Below the pieces are notes generated by a model. The model was not told the origin of the DNA and ran no database searches. It worked only from the letters and a program-made list of their open reading frames with translations. A program made the position numbers and the translations under genes. Below are positions 33,152-42,854 of a DNA stretch of 64,000 nt, one piece after another; within the stretch, counting starts at the first letter, position 1, and the number at the start of each line of letters is the position of its first letter. The DNA is from Longimicrobiaceae bacterium (GTDB taxonomy: Bacteria; Gemmatimonadota; Gemmatimonadetes; Longimicrobiales; Longimicrobiaceae), in assembly GCA_036375715.1 (NCBI GenBank), contig DASVBS010000079.1:62001-126000 (forward strand), written 5' to 3'.

Positions 33152-35608
33152 TCACCTCTCCAGCGCGCTTCGCAGGGCGCGCTCCAGCTCCTCGGGAGCG
33201 AACGGCTTCGCCAGGAAGGCTTGCTGCTCCTTCTCGATCTCCCGCCGGAGGACCTGGTCGCTGTTGTAGCCCGAGGTGAAGAGCACGCAAAGACCCGGGA
33301 GAGCCGCCGACAGTCGCCGAGCCAGCTCTCGGCCGCTCATTCCCGGCAGTACCAGGTCCGTCACCAGAAGGTCGAAGCGCCGACCCTCCTCGAGGGCTTG
33401 CAGAGCCTCAGTCGGCGTCGAGGCGACGAATACCTCGTAGCCCAGCCGCCTCATCACCCGCTCGGCCAGCGTTCGCACGCCGCTGTCGTCCTCTACCAGG
33501 AGCACTCGTTCGGAGGGGGCGGCTATCGGCGGCGCCTCGCCTGCTACCACCACCGACCTGCTCGGCTTTCTGAGGCGGGGCAGGTAGATGCGGAAGACCG
33601 TTCCCTTCCCCGGCGTGCTCTCCACATCGATTCGGCCGCCCGAGCGCTTCACGATCCCGTAGACGACGGAGAGGCCGAGTCCGGTGCCCTTTCCGCCGGA
33701 TTTGGTGGTGAAGAAGGGGTCGAAGATCTTCTCGCGCACCTCGGGCGTCATCCCCTCCCCCGTATCCTCCACCGAGAGGCACACATATTCGTCCGGGGGG
33801 AGGTCGCCTAGCCGCCGGGCGGCTTCAGCCCCCAGCCGGACGGGCGTGGTGCGGACCGACAGCTTGCCGCCCTGCGGCATGGCGTCCCGGGCATTGACGG
33901 CCAGATTGACCATCACCTGCTCGAGCTCACGACGGTCGGCGCGGACGTAGGTGGGTTCCGCGTGGAGGTCCAGCTCCAGCTCTATATCCTCCCCGATGAG
34001 CTGGGCGAGCATACGCTGTGTGTCCGCCATCACGCTCCCGAGTTCGACGATCTCCGGCTGACTCGCCTCCTTACTGCTGAAGGCCATCAGGCGCCCCGCA
34101 ACCCCGGCGGCACGCCAGGCCGCCCGCGAGATCTCCTCGATGTCCGGGCGGAGAGGGTCGTGGGCCGGCAGCGTACGCAACGCGAGGTCGGCAAAGCCGG
34201 TGATCGTCGTCAGTGCGTTGTTGAACTCGTGCGCGACGCCGCCCGCCATGCGTCCCACGGCCTCCATCTTCTGCGCCCGGATGAGCTGCTCCTCCAGCGC
34301 CTTCCGGTCGGAGATATCCTGAATGACGGAGATGAGGTAGTCGGGTCGACCATCCTCCTTACGAACGACCGATCCGGTAACGCTCACCCAGATGACCCCG
34401 CCGGACTTGTGGACGTACCGCTTCTCAATCGTGTAGCTCTCGATCTCGCCGGCGAGTAGCCGCTGGGTCTGGGCTTCGTGCGCGTCGCGGTCGGCCGGGT
34501 AGGTGATGTCGCGGAAGGTGAGGCGTAGTAGCTCGTCTCTGGAGTACCCGACGATCTCGGCCAGCCGCCGGTTCACCCGCAGGAAGCGGCCCCCGAGCTC
34601 GATGTGTGAGATCCCCACGGCGGCCTGATCGAAAGTGGAGCGGAAGCGTCGCTCGCTCTCCGCAAGCGCTTCCTCGGCCACCTTTCGCGCGGTCACGTCG
34701 CGCACCAGCCATACCCCGCGATCATCCCCAATCGGCGAGACCGACCCCGCAAACCAGACCGTCCGCGGGCCGATCCGAAGTGGGTACTCGATGTCGACGC
34801 TGCAGCCCTCTCGCAGGGCGGTGGCGATCCAGCCCGCGAACCGGTCCGCTGTCTCAAGCGGAAAAACTTCGTGGATGGTTCGTCCGATGAGCTGGTCGCG
34901 AGCGAGGTAGTCCGCCGGGGCGGAGGTCTCCGCAATGCTGAGGAAGCGGCCCTCGGCATCGAACTCGACCATTACATAGTCGCTCGCCCGGACCAGCCTC
35001 TGCAGCGCCGCACTCGAAAGCTCCGCTTCCTCCCGCGCCCGCTCGGCGGTGGCGTAGCGAAGAGCGTGATCCAGGGCGGTGGCCGCTCGCGCCGCCAGCC
35101 CCAGCACGAGCTCGAAGTGACCCTGCTCGTAGGGCTCCTCACCTTGCGACCGGCCGATCAACATCGCTCCGATGACCCGGTCGCGGATGGAGAGCGGGGC
35201 AAAGATCAGCGAACGCGCGCCGGCGGCCCGAGCCAGTGGCAGGTATCCCGGCGGCAGCGCGGCCTCGTCCGCGAAATCGCTTCCCGGGGGGAGCAGGATC
35301 GGTTCGGGAGCGTCGATGATGTTCGCTTTGCCGGCTCGCGGCGGCGCGATCGGCGGGACGCGGCGGAGAGCGCGGTGCTTCTCCGGGTCGAGGTGCACGC
35401 TCTGCTCACGGCGAAGGCTGCCGTCCGGCTGCAGAAGATCGATCACCACGAAATCCGCCAGACCGGGCACGATCAGCTGGGCGACGGAAGTGAGCGTCTC
35501 TCTGAGATCCAGCGAGGAGGCGAGCAGGTCGCCCGCACTGAGCAGGAAGGCGAGCGTCTCCTCCCGGTGGTCGAGCCCGGGGAGCACCGCGGCGGGTCTG
35601 TCACTCAT
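33152..35608 (-). CDS. Cytosolic hybrid sensor histidine kinase (GAF-PAS-PAS-HisKA-HATPase-REC)
   Basis: An 818-residue hybrid kinase without membrane helices. Domain order: GAF-like (about 20-190), PAS (about 205-310), PAS (about 325-440, with a PAC region [16 protein letters not shown]), HisKA with phosphoacceptor His460 in [17 protein letters not shown], HATPase with N box [12 protein letters not shown]1 EDTGEGM and G2 GKGTGLGLS, then a receiver domain whose phosphorylated residue is Asp751 in [11 protein letters not shown]. It probably senses an intracellular signal and passes phosphate to its own receiver or a separate partner. No response regulator gene is adjacent, so it is an orphan. 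The start has no strong ribosome site. Confidence 0.95.
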
Positions 35609-36323: not shown

Positions 36324-36339
36324 GTGGCTTGACAGCCAC
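36324..36339. promoter_or_regulatory. Inverted repeat over a perfect -35 box upstream of the TolC operon
   Basis: GTGGCT (36324-36329) and AGCCAC (36334-36339) flank TGAC, and the run contains TTGACA (36329-36334), a consensus -35. CAATTT lies 17 bases downstream (36352-36357) as a weak -10. A second possible pair is TTGGAG (36356) with TGCATA (36379). The repeat could be an operator. Confidence 0.4.
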
Positions 36340-36404
36340 CGTCTCCCGCCGCAATTTGGAGGTTACTGCAAATTTTTGTGCATACCCCCCCAAAAAACAA
36401 TCCG

Positions 36405-37955
36405 ATGAATCAGACGGTGCGCTCTCCCTTCGTACCCTCCCCTGCGCGTATCGCCGGGCTTCTCGTAGTTCTCGGGCTTTTCGTCGGCGCGGCCCCGCTC
36501 ACCGCTCAGAGCGGAAAGAAGGTGAACCTCACGCTGGAGTCGGCGGTGCGGATGACGATCGACGACAGCTACCGCGTGCGGCGGCTGCGACTGGACGTGG
36601 AGCGCACGCGGAGCCTGCTCCAGGCGCAGCGCGCCGGCTTGAAGTCGCGGGTGTTCATGAACTTCCAGACGCCCGAATTCGAGCGCATCTCGGAGAGTAA
36701 GTGGAACTCGACCCTCGGGCGCAACGAGATCGTGCGTGAGCACTCACAGCGCTGGCAGTTCGATTTCTCCATCGAGCAGCCGGTCATCCTGTTCGGTTAT
36801 CCGACCAACGGCTATCTGTCGCTCAACAACCGGGTCTACCGCTACACCCAGTTTGCGGAGGACGAGGACCAGGACGACGTCCGCTATTACAACCGGTACT
36901 TCGTGCAGTACCGACAGCCGTTCTTTCAACCGAACTACCTCAAGAACAACCTGGAGGAGGCGGAGCTGGACCTGGAGAGCTCCGAGCTGGCCTTCCAGGC
37001 GGACGCCGTCAGCATCATCCAAGACGTCGCCGACGCCTATTATGATCTCTTTCGCGTCGGCTATCAGCGCCTGATTCTGGCAGACCTCGTCGAGAATCTC
37101 GAGAACGCGGCTGCCATGGCGCGGGAACGGGTGGCTCTCGATTCGTCACTGGTGATCGAGGCCAATCAGGTGCAGGTTGCGCTGGCGAATGCCCGGGCCG
37201 AGCTCGAGCAGACGCAGAGCAACTACCGGCTGGAGTCCTCGCAGATGAAGCAGCGGCTTCGCCTGCCAGAAGAAGACTCGCTGGTGATCGATCTCGACCT
37301 CTCGGTGGTCCCGCTCGAGGTGGATCTGCAGGAGGCGATCAGCTACGGATTGAACCTGCGTCCCCAGCTGCGCAGGCTCGGCATCGACGAGCGACGCAAC
37401 GAGATCTGGGCGCAGGAGGCCCGCGGCAACAACGGCTTCCGCCTCAACCTCGAGGTGACCTACGGTCGCGAGATGCAGGATCCCGTGCTGCGGGACCTCA
37501 TGGACGACCCCAGCAACAGCTACACGGTCGGTGTCTCCGGATACGTGCCGATCTGGGACTGGGGTGCGCGTAGTGCCCGCGTCCAGGCTCAGCGGCTCAG
37601 CCTGGAACGTGTGAGGCTGTCGATCGAGGAAACGGAGGAGGCCATCCGTCGCGAGATCGGCAACGTCGTGCGCAACCTGGAGGAATACCAGCAGCGAGCG
37701 ATCAACATGCAGGAGAACCTGGAGCTGGCTCGCCAGGTCTCGGCCATGAGCATGGCGCAGTACTCCGCCGGCCGCGGGACGATGCTAGACCTGGTCCAGG
37801 CCTTCGAGCGGCAGGCTGACACCGCCGAGAACTTCCTCGACGCTTTTCTTGGCTACCGGGAAGCGATCCTGGACCTGCAGGCGATCACCTACTATGACTT
37901 CGAGCACGACATGCCCGTGCTCGAACGTTTCCAGCTACAGGACAGCTCCACTTGA
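36405..37955 (+). CDS. TolC-family outer-membrane efflux protein
   Basis: A 516-residue TolC-like outer-membrane channel. The ATG at 36405 begins a signal peptide (about 1-35, ending LTAQ). Two long coiled-coil repeats are visible: ERTRSLLQAQRAGLKSRV to AELEQTQSNYRLESSQMKQ and ARSARVQAQRLSLERVRLSIEETEEAIRREIGN to the C terminus. TolC proteins trimerise and dock with an inner-membrane pump through a periplasmic adaptor. No pump or adaptor gene is nearby. The gene overlaps the BlaI-type repressor by 4 bases, so its operon carries its own regulation, with the M56 protein. Confidence 0.88.
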   Translation: MNQTVRSPFVPSPARIAGLLVVLGLFVGAAPLTAQSGKKVNLTLESAVRMTIDDSYRVRRLRLDVERTRSLLQAQRAGLKSRVFMNFQTPEFERISESKWNSTLGRNEIVREHSQRWQFDFSIEQPVILFGYPTNGYLSLNNRVYRYTQFAEDEDQDDVRYYNRYFVQYRQPFFQPNYLKNNLEEAELDLESSELAFQADAVSIIQDVADAYYDLFRVGYQRLILADLVENLENAAAMARERVALDSSLVIEANQVQVALANARAELEQTQSNYRLESSQMKQRLRLPEEDSLVIDLDLSVVPLEVDLQEAISYGLNLRPQLRRLGIDERRNEIWAQEARGNNGFRLNLEVTYGREMQDPVLRDLMDDPSNSYTVGVSGYVPIWDWGARSARVQAQRLSLERVRLSIEETEEAIRREIGNVVRNLEEYQQRAINMQENLELARQVSAMSMAQYSAGRGTMLDLVQAFERQADTAENFLDAFLGYREAILDLQAITYYDFEHDMPVLERFQLQDSST

Positions 37956-38368
37956 GCACGCCCCCTTCATCCGAATCGATGAGCGATCCGGTCCATCTCC
38001 ACCTGAGCCGCCGCGAGAGCCAGATCATGGACGTGATCTACCAGCTCGGTGAGGCGAGCGTGGCGGAGGTGGTGGAGCGCATCCCCGATCAGCCGGGCTA
38101 CAATACCGTCCGGAACACCATGGCGATCCTCGAGCGGAAGGGTCACTTGCGGCACCGGCGCGAAGGGCAGCGCTACCTGTACGCTCCGCGGGACCCGGTG
38201 GAGAACGCCAAGACCTCCGCCCTGCGTCACCTGCTGCACACCTTCTTTGACGGCTCCCTGCCGAAGGCCGTGGTCGCGCTGCTCAGCGCCTCCGATCAGA
38301 GGCTTACCGACAAGGAGCTGGACGAGATCGCCGAGTACATCGAGCGCGTTCGGCGGGGAGAGAAGTAG
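37952..38368 (+). CDS. BlaI/MecI/CopY-family winged-helix repressor
   Basis: A 138-residue dimeric repressor of the penicillinase-repressor family. The winged helix includes HLSRRESQIMDVIYQLGEASVAEVVERIPDQPGYNTVRNTMAILERKGHL in pieces, with the YNTVRNTM recognition helix, and the C-terminal dimerisation helices follow (TDKELDEIAEYIERVRRGE). The likely start is TTG at 37952, overlapping the TolC stop (TTGA); an ATG at 37979 would shorten it by 9 residues. It is followed by the M56 gene after one base. In BlaI/BlaR1 systems the M56 partner triggers cleavage of BlaI and derepression. Here it probably controls its own operon, including TolC. Confidence 0.93.
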   Translation: MSTPPSSESMSDPVHLHLSRRESQIMDVIYQLGEASVAEVVERIPDQPGYNTVRNTMAILERKGHLRHRREGQRYLYAPRDPVENAKTSALRHLLHTFFDGSLPKAVVALLSASDQRLTDKELDEIAEYIERVRRGEK

Positions 38369-38369
38369 G

Positions 38370-40856
38370 ATGGAGTGGGCGGGTACCCTGTTGACGGGCG
38401 CAGCGATCTACCTGCTCGTCGTGATGCTGAAGGCGACGGCCATCCTGGCAGTCGCCTGGCTGCTTGCAGCCTCCGCCCCGAAGAGCTCGGCGGCTGTCCG
38501 CCACGGCATCTGGGCGACGGCGCTGGTTCTCGTCGGCCTGCTCCCGCTCGCGACTTCCTCACTTCCGCCGCTGGCCGTCCATCTTCCCGCGTTCGTGCGC
38601 GAGGGAGCCCAGGGGTCGACGCCTCAACCGGCATCGGTTGCAACTTCTGGCGCGACTGCCACGGCGGACGTTGCTGTCTCCACCAGTGAGTCGGGGTCGA
38701 GCGTTCTTCCGAGCTCTGACGGCGCCGCGGCCTCCGACCCATCCCCGCTCAATCGCTGGCCTCTCCTGCTGCTCGTGCTCTGGGTGGCAGGGACGGCCGC
38801 ACGTGCGGCCTGGCTTGGCGTTCAGCTCCGGCGCGTCCGGCGGATGGTGGCCGAGGCCTCTCCGGTCACGCAGCTCTCGCCTCCAGCCAGGGCCGCCCGC
38901 CGAGCGGCGGCGACTCTCGGCGTGGGCGGGAGCTTCTCCTTGCGGGAAAGCGCTCGCGTTCCGACACCGGTCACCTGCGGCCTTTTCCGCCCGGTGATCC
39001 TCATCCCTGAACGGTCACGCACCTGGCCCGAAGAGCGCCTGCGTGTGGTGCTGCTCCACGAGCTCGCTCACGTCAGGCGCCGCGACTATCTCTCTTCCCT
39101 GCTCGCCGAGCTGGTGTGCACGGTCTACTGGCCGATTCCGCTCGTCTGGGCCGCCCGGGCTGCCATGCACGTCGAGCAGGAGCAGGCGAGTGACGACCTC
39201 GTGCTCGCCGCCGGTACGCCCCCGCTGGAGTATGCCGATCAGCTCCTCGCCGTCGCGAGGTCGTTGCGGCCTAGGGATGCCGCCCTCGCCGGTGTGCTCG
39301 AGATGGCGCGACCGGCCGGGCTCAGGTACCGGGTGAAGACGATCCTGGACACACGAACCCGTCGGGTGCCCCTGGTCTCCCTGCAGGGCCTTGCGACCCT
39401 CTCCGCTCTGTTGCTCTGCGCCGCTCCGCTGGCCGCCCTGCGACCCGCGGAGGACGGTGGTGTGAGCCTGGAGCCGGCCACCGCGCTGGAGACGGACGCC
39501 GTCGCTGCCGAGACTCCCACACAGGAGCTCTCGGTTTCCGCTCCGGCTGAGCCGGTCTACTTGTGGATCGAGGCGGAGCATGGAGTTCTGCTCGGAGGTC
39601 TCGCGACGGCAGAGGATCTCGAGGCATCCGCGGGACAGTTCGTCGAGCAGGCGCGGGAGCGCGGTGGCGGGGAGGTGCGTCTCTCGCTTCACCTGCCGCG
39701 TGCGGGCGACTACCGGCTGTGGATCCGGACCGCGTTGGCGGAAGAGGACTCGCCGCCTCGGCTGTCGCTCGACGGAGCGACGCGGCTCGCGCTGGACGGC
39801 GCCGAAGTCATCGACGCGTCTGGCTGGCGGTGGTCGCGGGCGGAGATGGCGGAAGATGGGCCCGTGCGGTTGGGAGCGGGCGTGCACACGCTCTCGATCC
39901 AGAGCGAGGCTCCCGGAGGTCGGATCGACCGCGTCCTTGTCACCACCGACGCGAGTTACCTCCCCTCCGGCACCGGAGCGGCGCCGCGCGATTTCGCCCC
40001 GATCTATCGCTGGGTAGAGATGGTTCCGGGTCCCCTGTCGGAGCCTCTCGAGCTGGAAGTGGAGGTCCCCGCCGCCGGGCAGTACGTCGTGTGGGGTCGA
40101 GTGAGGGGTGCGAGCGTCGATGCCAACTCGTTCTTCCTCTCCGTCGACGACGGCCCGGAGGTGATCTGGGACGCACCCCGACAGGTTCTCGACGAGGAGG
40201 AGGGGCGCTGGGTCTGGGATCCGGCCAGCGCACGGGACATGAACGGGCGCGAGGTGGACCCGCTCCTCTTCGACCTCGACGCGGGCAAGCATTCGATCCG
40301 CCTGACACCCAGGGAGCCGTCTACCGGGATCGGCGGATTGTTGGTCACCAACGACCTGGCGTTCCGTCCACAGGGTCGACCGCCGGGATCTCCGCCGGTC
40401 GACATCTGGCTGGAGCCCGAGAGTGCGAGCCCCGGAGACGCGCTGCGTGTTCAAGCCGCGGACGGAAGGCGCGAAGGATACCTGGAGGCGGTGCGCGATG
40501 GCCCCGACCGTAGCGAGCCGGACGGGCAGGTGCCCGCCACGCTCGTCTTCACGCTCCCCAGTCCGGGCATCTACACCCTCTGGGCTCGCACCGTGGCGCG
40601 ATCGCAAAGCGAGGACTCCTTCTGGATCCGGGTGAACGGCGGCCGATGGATGCGCTGGAACGGCATTCCTACCAGTTCCGAGTGGCGCTGGTCGGCCGTG
40701 CACGATGGCGACGAGGGAGAGGCTCCAATCCAGCTCGCCCTGCCGGCTGGGGAGAACCGGATCGAGATCGCGCGGAGGGAAGGGGGCGCCCGGATCGAGC
40801 GCCTGCTGGTCACTAACGACGAGCACGCGAGCCCGGTCGCCCGACTGGCCGAGTGA
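38370..40856 (+). CDS. M56-family (BlaR1-like) membrane metallopeptidase with three beta-sandwich sensor-like repeats
   Basis: An 828-residue protein. The N-terminal 360 residues are a BlaR1-type membrane protease: helices at about 13-35, 46-63, 130-150 and 340-357, zinc motif HELAH (230-234) and the downstream Glu271 in EQASDD. Instead of a penicillin-binding domain, the remaining 440 residues are three related extracytoplasmic repeats at about 397-530, 546-664 and 678-817. Each has an opening Y/I-x-W-x-E, a central Y-x-[LV]-W strand, a W-x-W strand, a G-x-[HN] turn and an ending LVT[TN]D. This pattern resembles malectin/CBM-like beta-sandwiches. GGGGAGAG lies before the ATG. It probably senses an envelope or extracellular ligand, perhaps a glycan, and inactivates the neighbouring BlaI-like repressor. 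Confidence 0.88.
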   Translation: MEWAGTLLTGAAIYLLVVMLKATAILAVAWLLAASAPKSSAAVRHGIWATALVLVGLLPLATSSLPPLAVHLPAFVREGAQGSTPQPASVATSGATATADVAVSTSESGSSVLPSSDGAAASDPSPLNRWPLLLLVLWVAGTAARAAWLGVQLRRVRRMVAEASPVTQLSPPARAARRAAATLGVGGSFSLRESARVPTPVTCGLFRPVILIPERSRTWPEERLRVVLLHELAHVRRRDYLSSLLAELVCTVYWPIPLVWAARAAMHVEQEQASDDLVLAAGTPPLEYADQLLAVARSLRPRDAALAGVLEMARPAGLRYRVKTILDTRTRRVPLVSLQGLATLSALLLCAAPLAALRPAEDGGVSLEPATALETDAVAAETPTQELSVSAPAEPVYLWIEAEHGVLLGGLATAEDLEASAGQFVEQARERGGGEVRLSLHLPRAGDYRLWIRTALAEEDSPPRLSLDGATRLALDGAEVIDASGWRWSRAEMAEDGPVRLGAGVHTLSIQSEAPGGRIDRVLVTTDASYLPSGTGAAPRDFAPIYRWVEMVPGPLSEPLELEVEVPAAGQYVVWGRVRGASVDANSFFLSVDDGPEVIWDAPRQVLDEEEGRWVWDPASARDMNGREVDPLLFDLDAGKHSIRLTPREPSTGIGGLLVTNDLAFRPQGRPPGSPPVDIWLEPESASPGDALRVQAADGRREGYLEAVRDGPDRSEPDGQVPATLVFTLPSPGIYTLWARTVARSQSEDSFWIRVNGGRWMRWNGIPTSSEWRWSAVHDGDEGEAPIQLALPAGENRIEIARREGGARIERLLVTNDEHASPVARLAE

Positions 40857-40928: not shown

Positions 40929-40977
40929 CTCCGGGCTCAGTCCTCCCGGAGCAGGGGGCGTGTTTTCTCCTTTTTTT
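40929..40977 (+). terminator. Possible terminator between M56 and FtsH genes
   Basis: CTCCGGG (40929-40935) and CCCGGAG (40945-40951) form a 7-base-pair stem with a 9-base loop. A T-rich tract (TGTTTTCTCCTTTTTTT) begins 9 bases later. The distance is longer than in a standard intrinsic terminator, so it may be partial. It suggests that the FtsH-like gene has its own transcription. Confidence 0.4.
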
Positions 40978-40982
40978 GCTGA

Positions 40983-42854
40983 GTGCCCGTAGTTGTGAAG
41001 CACCTGATTTCCCGCTCCAGAGAGCTGATTGCCACACCCCGTAGGCGCGTGGCGATTCTGCTGGGCATCCTTGTCTCCGCAGCGGTTCTGCTGGCGGGCC
41101 TACGGATCGTGGCGCAGAGCCCCCCGGAGGCACCGTACTCCGCTGTGGCGTCGGCGCTGACCGCCGGCACCGTCGAAGAGGTGGTGGTGGGCGAAAGCGG
41201 ATCGCGGCTCAGGGTCACTCTCTCCGAGCCCCTCGTGGTGGGCGAGCGAGAGGCAAGCGTGATCGACGTGCTGGTACCGGGTCGCGCGGTGACGCTGGAG
41301 GACATGGAGCGGTGGGCGGCTGCGGGTGCCCAGGTGCTGGTGCGTGGCGAATCGGTCGGAAGTCGGGTGGGGCGAGGCGTGGGGCTGGCGCTGATCATCG
41401 GTCTGGGTGTGTTTCTGCTGTTGAGAGTGCAGCGGGGGGCGTTGGCTTCGCGCCGCTTCCGGACCGCGCCTGAGGATCGGAGACTTACGCTGGCGCAGGT
41501 GGGAGGAGCGCGCGAGGCGCGAGCCGACCTGGCTGACGTCATTGCGTACCTCTCCGATCCGGCTCGCTTCCAGGCCATGGGTGCGCGCTGCCCGAAGGGT
41601 GTGCTCCTCGTCGGCCCGCCCGGCACGGGGAAGACCCTGCTGGCGCGCGCGGTGGCGGGGGAGTCGGGTCGGCCAGTGATCATCGCCTCCGGCTCGGAGT
41701 TCACCGAGATGTACGTCGGGGTGGGAGCGCGCCGGGTGCGTGATCTCATCAAGCAGGCGCGGGCCAAGGCGCCGTGCATCGTCTTCATCGACGAGTTCGA
41801 TTCGCTGGGTGGCCGCCGCGGCCGTCCGAATCGAAGCGGGGAGGAGGAGAACACGCTGAACCAGCTCCTCGTGGAGATGGATGGCCTGAGCGGGAACGAG
41901 GGGATCGTCTGGATGGCGGCGACCAACCGCGAGGACATGCTCGATCCCGCCGTGCGGCGGCCGGGCCGCTTCGACCGGGTGGTCGAGGTGGGGCTACCGG
42001 TTGCGTCGGACCGACTGGAGATCCTGCGGATCCATGCCGCCCGTCGCCCGATGGCGAAAGACGTGGATCTCGAGCGGCTGGCTGCCCTCACCGTGGGGTA
42101 TTCCGGGGCGGATCTGGAGAATCTCCTGAACGAAGCGGCCATCATCGCCGTGCAGAGGGGGAACACGGAGATCACCGCCGAGGATGTGGAGCAGGCGCGT
42201 GACAAGATCGCGCTCGGGCGGATCCGGGCGGGCGTGGAGGTGAGCGACGAGGAGCGCCGGCTGGTTGCGCTGCACGAGGCGGGGCACGTGGTCACTGGTG
42301 TGATCGCCTGCCCGCAGGACCGGCTGCACAAGGTGACGATCGAGGCACGGGGCCGCTCGCTTGGCGCGGCGCACTTCGCTCCGGACACCGACCGCCACCT
42401 CTACTCCCGCAGCTACCTGGAGGGTATCCTGGTGAAGGCGCTGGGTGGCCGTGCGGCGGAGAAGGTTTTCTTGGGAGAGGATGCCGTGACCTCCGGGGCC
42501 GGCGCCGACCTGGTGCACGCTACCCGGGTCGCGCGACAGATGGTCGCCGAGTTCGGGATGAGCGAAGAGGTGGGCCTGCTCAGTGCGTCGCCTGCGGCCT
42601 TCGATGGCGCCCCGAGCGGCGACCTCCAGGCCCGCATCGATGCGGCGGTCCGTTCGCTGCTGAGCCGGCAGATGGACCGAGCGGAAGCGATCGTGCGTGA
42701 GCACCGCCAGGCAGTGGACGCCCTGGCCCGGGCGCTGGTGCGTCGTCTCGTGCTGGAGGCGTGGGAGGCTTATTCGATCCTGGCCCTGCACGGGGTAGAG
42801 ATTCCGGGCACGGTCCTGAAAGCGGCCTCCAAGGAGGGTCGGGCGGCGGCCTGA
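40983..42854 (+). CDS. ftsH: FtsH-type ATP-dependent membrane zinc protease
   Basis: A 623-residue AAA+ metalloprotease that degrades misfolded or regulatory membrane and soluble proteins. Two N-terminal membrane helices (about 23-42 and 132-148) flank a short periplasmic part. The AAA module has Walker A GPPGTGKT (211-218), pore loop FTEMYVGVGARRV (240-252), Walker B FIDE (268-271) and the second region with RPGRFDR. The protease zinc site is HEAGH (431-435) with an acidic third ligand further down. The C terminus is short. The start is taken as GTG at 40983; GTG at 40995 is also possible, and neither has a good ribosome site. It follows the M56 gene but may be transcribed separately. It may be one of several FtsH copies in the genome. 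Confidence 0.93.
   Translation: MPVVVKHLISRSRELIATPRRRVAILLGILVSAAVLLAGLRIVAQSPPEAPYSAVASALTAGTVEEVVVGESGSRLRVTLSEPLVVGEREASVIDVLVPGRAVTLEDMERWAAAGAQVLVRGESVGSRVGRGVGLALIIGLGVFLLLRVQRGALASRRFRTAPEDRRLTLAQVGGAREARADLADVIAYLSDPARFQAMGARCPKGVLLVGPPGTGKTLLARAVAGESGRPVIIASGSEFTEMYVGVGARRVRDLIKQARAKAPCIVFIDEFDSLGGRRGRPNRSGEEENTLNQLLVEMDGLSGNEGIVWMAATNREDMLDPAVRRPGRFDRVVEVGLPVASDRLEILRIHAARRPMAKDVDLERLAALTVGYSGADLENLLNEAAIIAVQRGNTEITAEDVEQARDKIALGRIRAGVEVSDEERRLVALHEAGHVVTGVIACPQDRLHKVTIEARGRSLGAAHFAPDTDRHLYSRSYLEGILVKALGGRAAEKVFLGEDAVTSGAGADLVHATRVARQMVAEFGMSEEVGLLSASPAAFDGAPSGDLQARIDAAVRSLLSRQMDRAEAIVREHRQAVDALARALVRRLVLEAWEAYSILALHGVEIPGTVLKAASKEGRAAA

Follow-up and report, generated by a model that had tools for sequence, protein, structure and literature searches.

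A BlaI-linked M56 membrane protease with three CBM6/CBM35-like modules in a Longimicrobiaceae genome, a candidate glycan-sensing switch

BlaR1 and MecR1 are known mainly as penicillin sensors, and the question raised by this locus is what a membrane protease of their type might sense when its outer part is of another kind. In the window (the whole stretch of 64,000 nucleotides that was analysed), a gene for an M56 protease lies next to a gene for a BlaI-type repressor. A sequence-only reading had proposed that the protease ends in three glycan-binding-like repeats, that it responds to a new input, and that it controls an operon containing tolC. The features of the locus are as follows.

36405..37955, + strand: TolC-family outer-membrane protein, its gene directly before blaI (PF02321, E 1e-27)
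37979..38368, + strand: BlaI/MecI-family repressor, ATG start (PF03965, E 1.8e-24)
38370..40856, + strand: M56 (BlaR1-type) membrane zinc protease with three CBM6/CBM35-like modules, 828 aa (PF05569, predicted module fold)
38412..38822, + strand: predicted TM1 (residues 15-33), TM2 (47-65) and TM3 (133-151) (hydropathy and charge)
39057..39071, + strand: HELAH zinc motif, residues 230-234 (alignment)
39366..39422, + strand: predicted TM4, residues 333-351 (hydropathy)
39555..39971, + strand: CBM-like module 1, without the DSFW/RE core of the family (sequence only)
40002..40373, + strand: CBM-like module 2, with shortened N-terminal strands (pLDDT 82.8, top PDB match CBM35)
40398..40829, + strand: CBM-like module 3, the best preserved (pLDDT 92.7, top PDB matches CBM6 and CBM35)
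40940..40972, + strand: terminator-like hairpins with a T run, behind the M56 gene (9 sites in the region, 3.3 expected; weak)

Both members of the gene pair were recognized by profiles above their cut-offs. Thus, Peptidase_M56 (PF05569) spans residues 18-325 of the protease (E 1.5e-27; 97 bits, with the cut-off at 31), and the repressor matched PF03965 in Pfam with 86.7 bits against 22.6. A single base separates the end of blaI (38368) from the start of the M56 gene (38370), so that the description of a BlaR1-type protease directly after a BlaI-type repressor held. The M56 reading frame is unbroken, GC by codon position is similar in its two halves, and the gene is interior to a 149-kb contig, which together leave no obvious frameshift or assembly join. 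In the regions fetched for the closest M56 relatives, blaI was directly upstream of the M56 gene in 20 out of 20 cases; the pair thus works as a unit, and its adjacency, the conservation of which had been set as a test, is general among the relatives examined.

The protease part closely resembles that of BlaR1. The residues shown to be important in S. aureus BlaR1 are H201ExxH, D210, E242xxxD246 and Y261 (PMC9834060), and in the alignment the HELAH motif is followed, as in BlaR1, by D239, E271xxxD275 and Y288, columns that are conserved across the 20 M56 relatives. Hydropathy revealed four hydrophobic segments, three before the protease part and one behind it, with an acidic loop of ∼60 residues between TM2 and TM3. 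With 28 K+R against 17 D+E the protease part is basic, and with 43 against 76 the tail is acidic. These charges are consistent with a protease in the cytoplasm and a tail outside it, the N-out, C-out arrangement of BlaR1 (PMC9834060). The chain beyond TM4 is therefore predicted to be periplasmic.

This tail is composed of three repeats of about 120 to 145 residues, located at residues ∼396-534, ∼545-668 and ∼677-820 and ending in LVTTD, LVTND and LVTND, respectively. In pairwise alignments they scored 9.7, 12.6 and 13.3 s.d. higher than 1000 shuffled versions, no shuffle equalling the real score, so that the repeats noticed in the sequence-only reading are not due to chance. No transpeptidase or penicillin-binding-protein family matched the tail in the Pfam profile search, nor did any Pfam family exceed its cut-off there, the best being GH115_C with 16.2 bits versus 24.1. 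Preservation differed among the modules: of 33 columns conserved in 70% or more of the outside module relatives, module 3 retains 22, module 2 retains 16 and module 1 retains 15. The DSFW, W-x-W and RE motifs are all present in module 3, and DSFW and RE are missing from module 1. Homologues aligned to module 3 alone of the three, which is probably the likeliest ligand binder among them.

As for the fold of the modules, a PDB profile search with the three modules alone ranked the CBM35 of the exo-chitosanase CsxA first (E 0.005). Extended profiles also placed CBM35/CBM6-type proteins on top, although these profiles contain outside relatives and are thus not independent of them. When the tail was compared with plasmids by tblastn, the matches included a Persicobacter GH9 enzyme, whose matching parts are GH115_C, a Catenovulum protein beside a GH43 gene, and a solute-binding protein within a Paenibacillus sugar-transport cluster. 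A scan of GTDB contigs rendered 70 other loci with the module, using an alignment that included two constructed consensus-like rows to widen the patterns, the matches then being verified by tblastn with the natural sequence of module 3. The module-bearing proteins at these loci carry GH28, pectate-lyase-like, PKD, Kelch, CBM_35 and similar domains, and no M56 fusion was found among the 70. Of 51 module relatives, 17 matched GH115_C in Pfam at E<=0.01, two CBM_35 and one CBM_6.

Modules 3 and 2 were modelled singly, and the class of module 1 rests on its sequence. The AlphaFold2 model of module 3, built on 51 sequences, had a pLDDT of 92.7; its top Foldseek match was an agarase CBM6 (E 2.6e-7), and the best 50 PDB matches were all carbohydrate-active or carbohydrate-binding proteins. 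Module 2 (pLDDT 82.8) matched a CBM35 best (E 8.5e-5), with lower TM-scores. Profile searches, sequence relatives and predicted fold thus support a CBM6/CBM35-type beta-sandwich for the tail modules, in agreement with the earlier guess, and the ligand part is not transpeptidase-like, as that reading had stated. With CBM6/CBM35 and GH115_C (PF17829) the modules share the fold, an ExE start and the G-x-Y, DSFW, W-x-W and RE motifs. However, those domains usually occur in secreted, often carbohydrate-active proteins, whereas the window modules are part of a regulatory protease and score under the Pfam cut-offs.

Proteins matching the M56 part were present in 45 of the 61 related genomes, the protease domain being about 35 to 46% identical in the best matches. 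Among the tails of 20 such relatives, five exceeded the HEAT_2 cut-off (two more were just under it) and three contained DUF4097, while the remainder matched no Pfam family and none of the 20 contained a penicillin-binding domain. Exchangeable tails are thus normal in this group, and the contrast with penicillin sensors, implied at the outset as the norm for M56 proteins, proved too narrow. No CBM-like tail was detected by protein search in the other 60 related genomes, and the module was found in no other of about 395 sampled genomes of the phylum, in a scan that scored the best few candidates per genome and that divergent copies could escape. Similarly, the scan of the genome contig collection yielded no relatives of the whole protein, there were no matches in phages or viral contigs, and two further M56 proteins of the same genome have different tails. 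Homologues combining the M56 part with this tail, a search for which had been suggested, were thus found in no other genome searched, and a single known occurrence does not allow selection on the arrangement to be demonstrated. The system itself, a BlaR1/BlaI-type pair with a CBM-like tail, is real and well formed in that one genome of the data searched.

Two further matches were set aside. The multicopper oxidase at L036, a weak match in the phylum (E 6.6e-4), was judged to be due to chance and was not recovered with a better profile. In Catalimonadaceae (L121), a gene for a module-bearing protein precedes a BlaI-M56 pair by ∼250 bases; as one case, it was treated as coincidence.

The other tails are of interest in themselves. 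HEAT-tailed M56 proteins are encoded beside BlaI at L055 (1873-4605), L062 (3822-7148), L063 (2710-5856), L057 (5192-6841) and L050 (5221-6951), with up to 11 HEAT_2 stretches, and they possibly represent a class of non-beta-lactam BlaR1 proteins more widespread than the CBM case. DUF4097 (toastrack) tails are found beside BlaI at L047 (4017-6155), L049 (1841-3955) and L052 (5151-7823). In the genome of the window itself, contig 31 (L002, 277-2313) encodes a further M56 protein, 678 aa long, in which two repeats resemble by eye the plug motif VIVDGKR...YGPEAKDGVI of TonB-dependent receptors; a BlaI-family gene lies close by. No description of a CBM-tailed M56/BlaR1 or of a HEAT-tailed BlaR1 was found in the open-licence papers searched. 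Together, the CBM-tailed member and its HEAT- and DUF4097-tailed relatives point to M56/BlaI as a general receptor chassis whose sensors can be exchanged; if so, the control of an inner protease by an outer domain becomes approachable with different, non-covalent ligands.

The window pair shares with BlaR1/BlaI and MecR1/MecI of S. aureus and B. licheniformis a BlaI-family repressor beside an M56 protease, the HExxH...ExxxD residues and the same predicted topology, but their sensor is a class D beta-lactamase-like domain and that of the window consists of the three CBM6/35-like modules. We propose a BlaI/M56 switch in which these modules, in tandem and in the periplasm, replace the penicillin sensor and a glycan is the trigger, a reading to which we give about an even chance. 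In BlaR1, binding of the ligand outside sends a signal through the membrane that makes the zinc protease cut BlaI (PMC9834060). On this model, which is plausible by analogy, the modules would recognize a polysaccharide or a fragment of a glycan, with module 3 as the most probable binding site, and this binding outside would move both TM4 and the zinc protease on the cytoplasmic side. The activated protease would cut the adjacent repressor, and the loss of BlaI would derepress the operon in which it is encoded, tolC upstream possibly among the genes released. The fuller version, a one-protein polysaccharide receptor-protease that destroys BlaI and is one of many M56/BlaI switches with freely exchanged sensors (HEAT, DUF4097, CBM), falls a little short of an even chance.

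RsgI anti-sigma factors provide a precedent for a regulator that is controlled by proteolysis and uses a CBM as its outer sensor (PMC4711584, PMC12203970), and sensing of a glycan by the window protein is plausible on that comparison. RsgI of Clostridium thermocellum is alike in its working, with an outer CBM sensor, a membrane protein and transcription controlled through proteolysis. However, it is an unrelated protein, an anti-sigma factor cut by other proteases, whereas in the window the sensor protein would itself be the protease and its target a repressor.

The position of tolC bears on what the switch might control. Its reading frame opens at a GTG at 36378, and, were blaI to begin at a TTG at 37952 instead, that start would share bases with the tolC stop codon, so that the two genes abut or overlap depending on the blaI start. 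From this spacing, tolC, blaI and the M56 gene are likely transcribed jointly here, and tolC is a possible target of the switch. Orthologues of the window TolC (44 to 53% identity) occur in other families of the order and phylum, but a BlaI-M56 pair was beside none of the 16 loci fetched, some of whose contigs end soon after tolC, and TolC was adjacent in none of the 20 closest M56 relatives. A conserved partnership of TolC with BlaI-M56 was therefore rejected, and the proposed TolC-containing operon finds no support as a target conserved beyond this locus, though the genes abut here. No obvious gene for glycan degradation or another CAZyme is present in the operon.

The same switch might instead monitor the cell's own envelope, the modules sensing peptidoglycan, an outer-membrane or exopolysaccharide glycan or a protein partner, in an envelope-stress response that raises TolC. 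The predicted periplasmic location of the C-terminal tail, the abutting tolC and the operon devoid of a visible CAZyme gene agree with this, and in B. licheniformis peptidoglycan fragments are reported to trigger the BlaR/BlaI response (PMC3305447). We nevertheless consider it unlikely, if by no means negligible, given that the adjacency of TolC is not conserved and that module relatives with a known partner often lie within polysaccharide-degrading enzymes, which favours an external polysaccharide.

CBM-like folds serve also as structural or protein-binding modules. The modules could thus be passive, acquired by fusion and acting as a spacer or in oligomerisation or attachment, the M56/BlaI pair answering another signal, for example via the TM2-TM3 loop, or none. 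The degraded cores of modules 1 and 2, the high variability of M56 tails across the family and the occurrence of the fusion in one genome only among those searched would suit such a role, but all three modules are in frame and keep their fold-determining residues, module 3 keeps two-thirds of the conserved columns with all three motifs, and the sensor occupies the same position in BlaR1 (PMC9834060); we regard this explanation as rather improbable. An ordinary beta-lactam-sensing BlaR1 is hardly credible: beyond the presence of a BlaI-M56 pair, what speaks for it is a match to NCBIfam blaR1_generic (NF000326), which reached 69 bits against a cut-off of 400 and covered only residues 132-355, in the protease part. 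The tail has no penicillin-binding match and its predicted fold is CBM-like, which excludes the beta-lactam-sensor fold for the repeats. The glycan-triggered switch is thus the reading that we prefer, although the degraded cores of modules 1 and 2, the other roles of CBM-like folds, the single genome and an operon devoid of obvious glycan-degradation genes count against it.

Against the proposed cleavage of BlaI, no Phe was obvious at the position equivalent to the S. aureus BlaI cleavage site (Asn101-Phe102), either in the window BlaI or in its relatives, in contrast to BlaR1/BlaI. The other BlaI-M56 pairs of the family and order have the protease domain and the adjacent BlaI (20/20) in common with the window pair, but their tails are HEAT, DUF4097 or unassigned, none with the window modules. 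Furthermore, 11 of the 20 contain, up to 200 bases upstream of blaI, a dyad of the type TGnTnA-N4-TnAnCA or GACA/AGCA-N3-TGTC/TGCT, versus 0.11 expected from resampled sequence, a contrast that is overstated since the patterns were picked after looking. Neither type is present upstream of the window tolC or blaI. The presumed recognition helix of the window BlaI (YNTVRNTMAIL) also differs from that of the relatives (YSAVRAxLRxL), which makes a different operator plausible. Upstream of tolC, near 36324-36340, GTGGCTtgacAGCCAC forms a dyad that occurs once in the genome; it was not taken as an operator, since 6-base dyads are expected there by chance.

Among the relatives, operator-like dyads, TGCTAAnnnnTTAGCA or GACAnnnTGTC, were observed upstream of blaI at L047-L053, L060, L062, L064 and L065, the last with three overlapping half-sites, TGCTAAtttaTTAGCAtagTGCTAA. 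In the window, a hybrid PAS/GAF histidine kinase with a receiver domain is encoded upstream of tolC on the opposite strand (33152-35608, -), and an FtsH-like AAA/M41 protease (40983-42854, +) directly downstream of the M56 gene, beyond the terminator-like hairpins.
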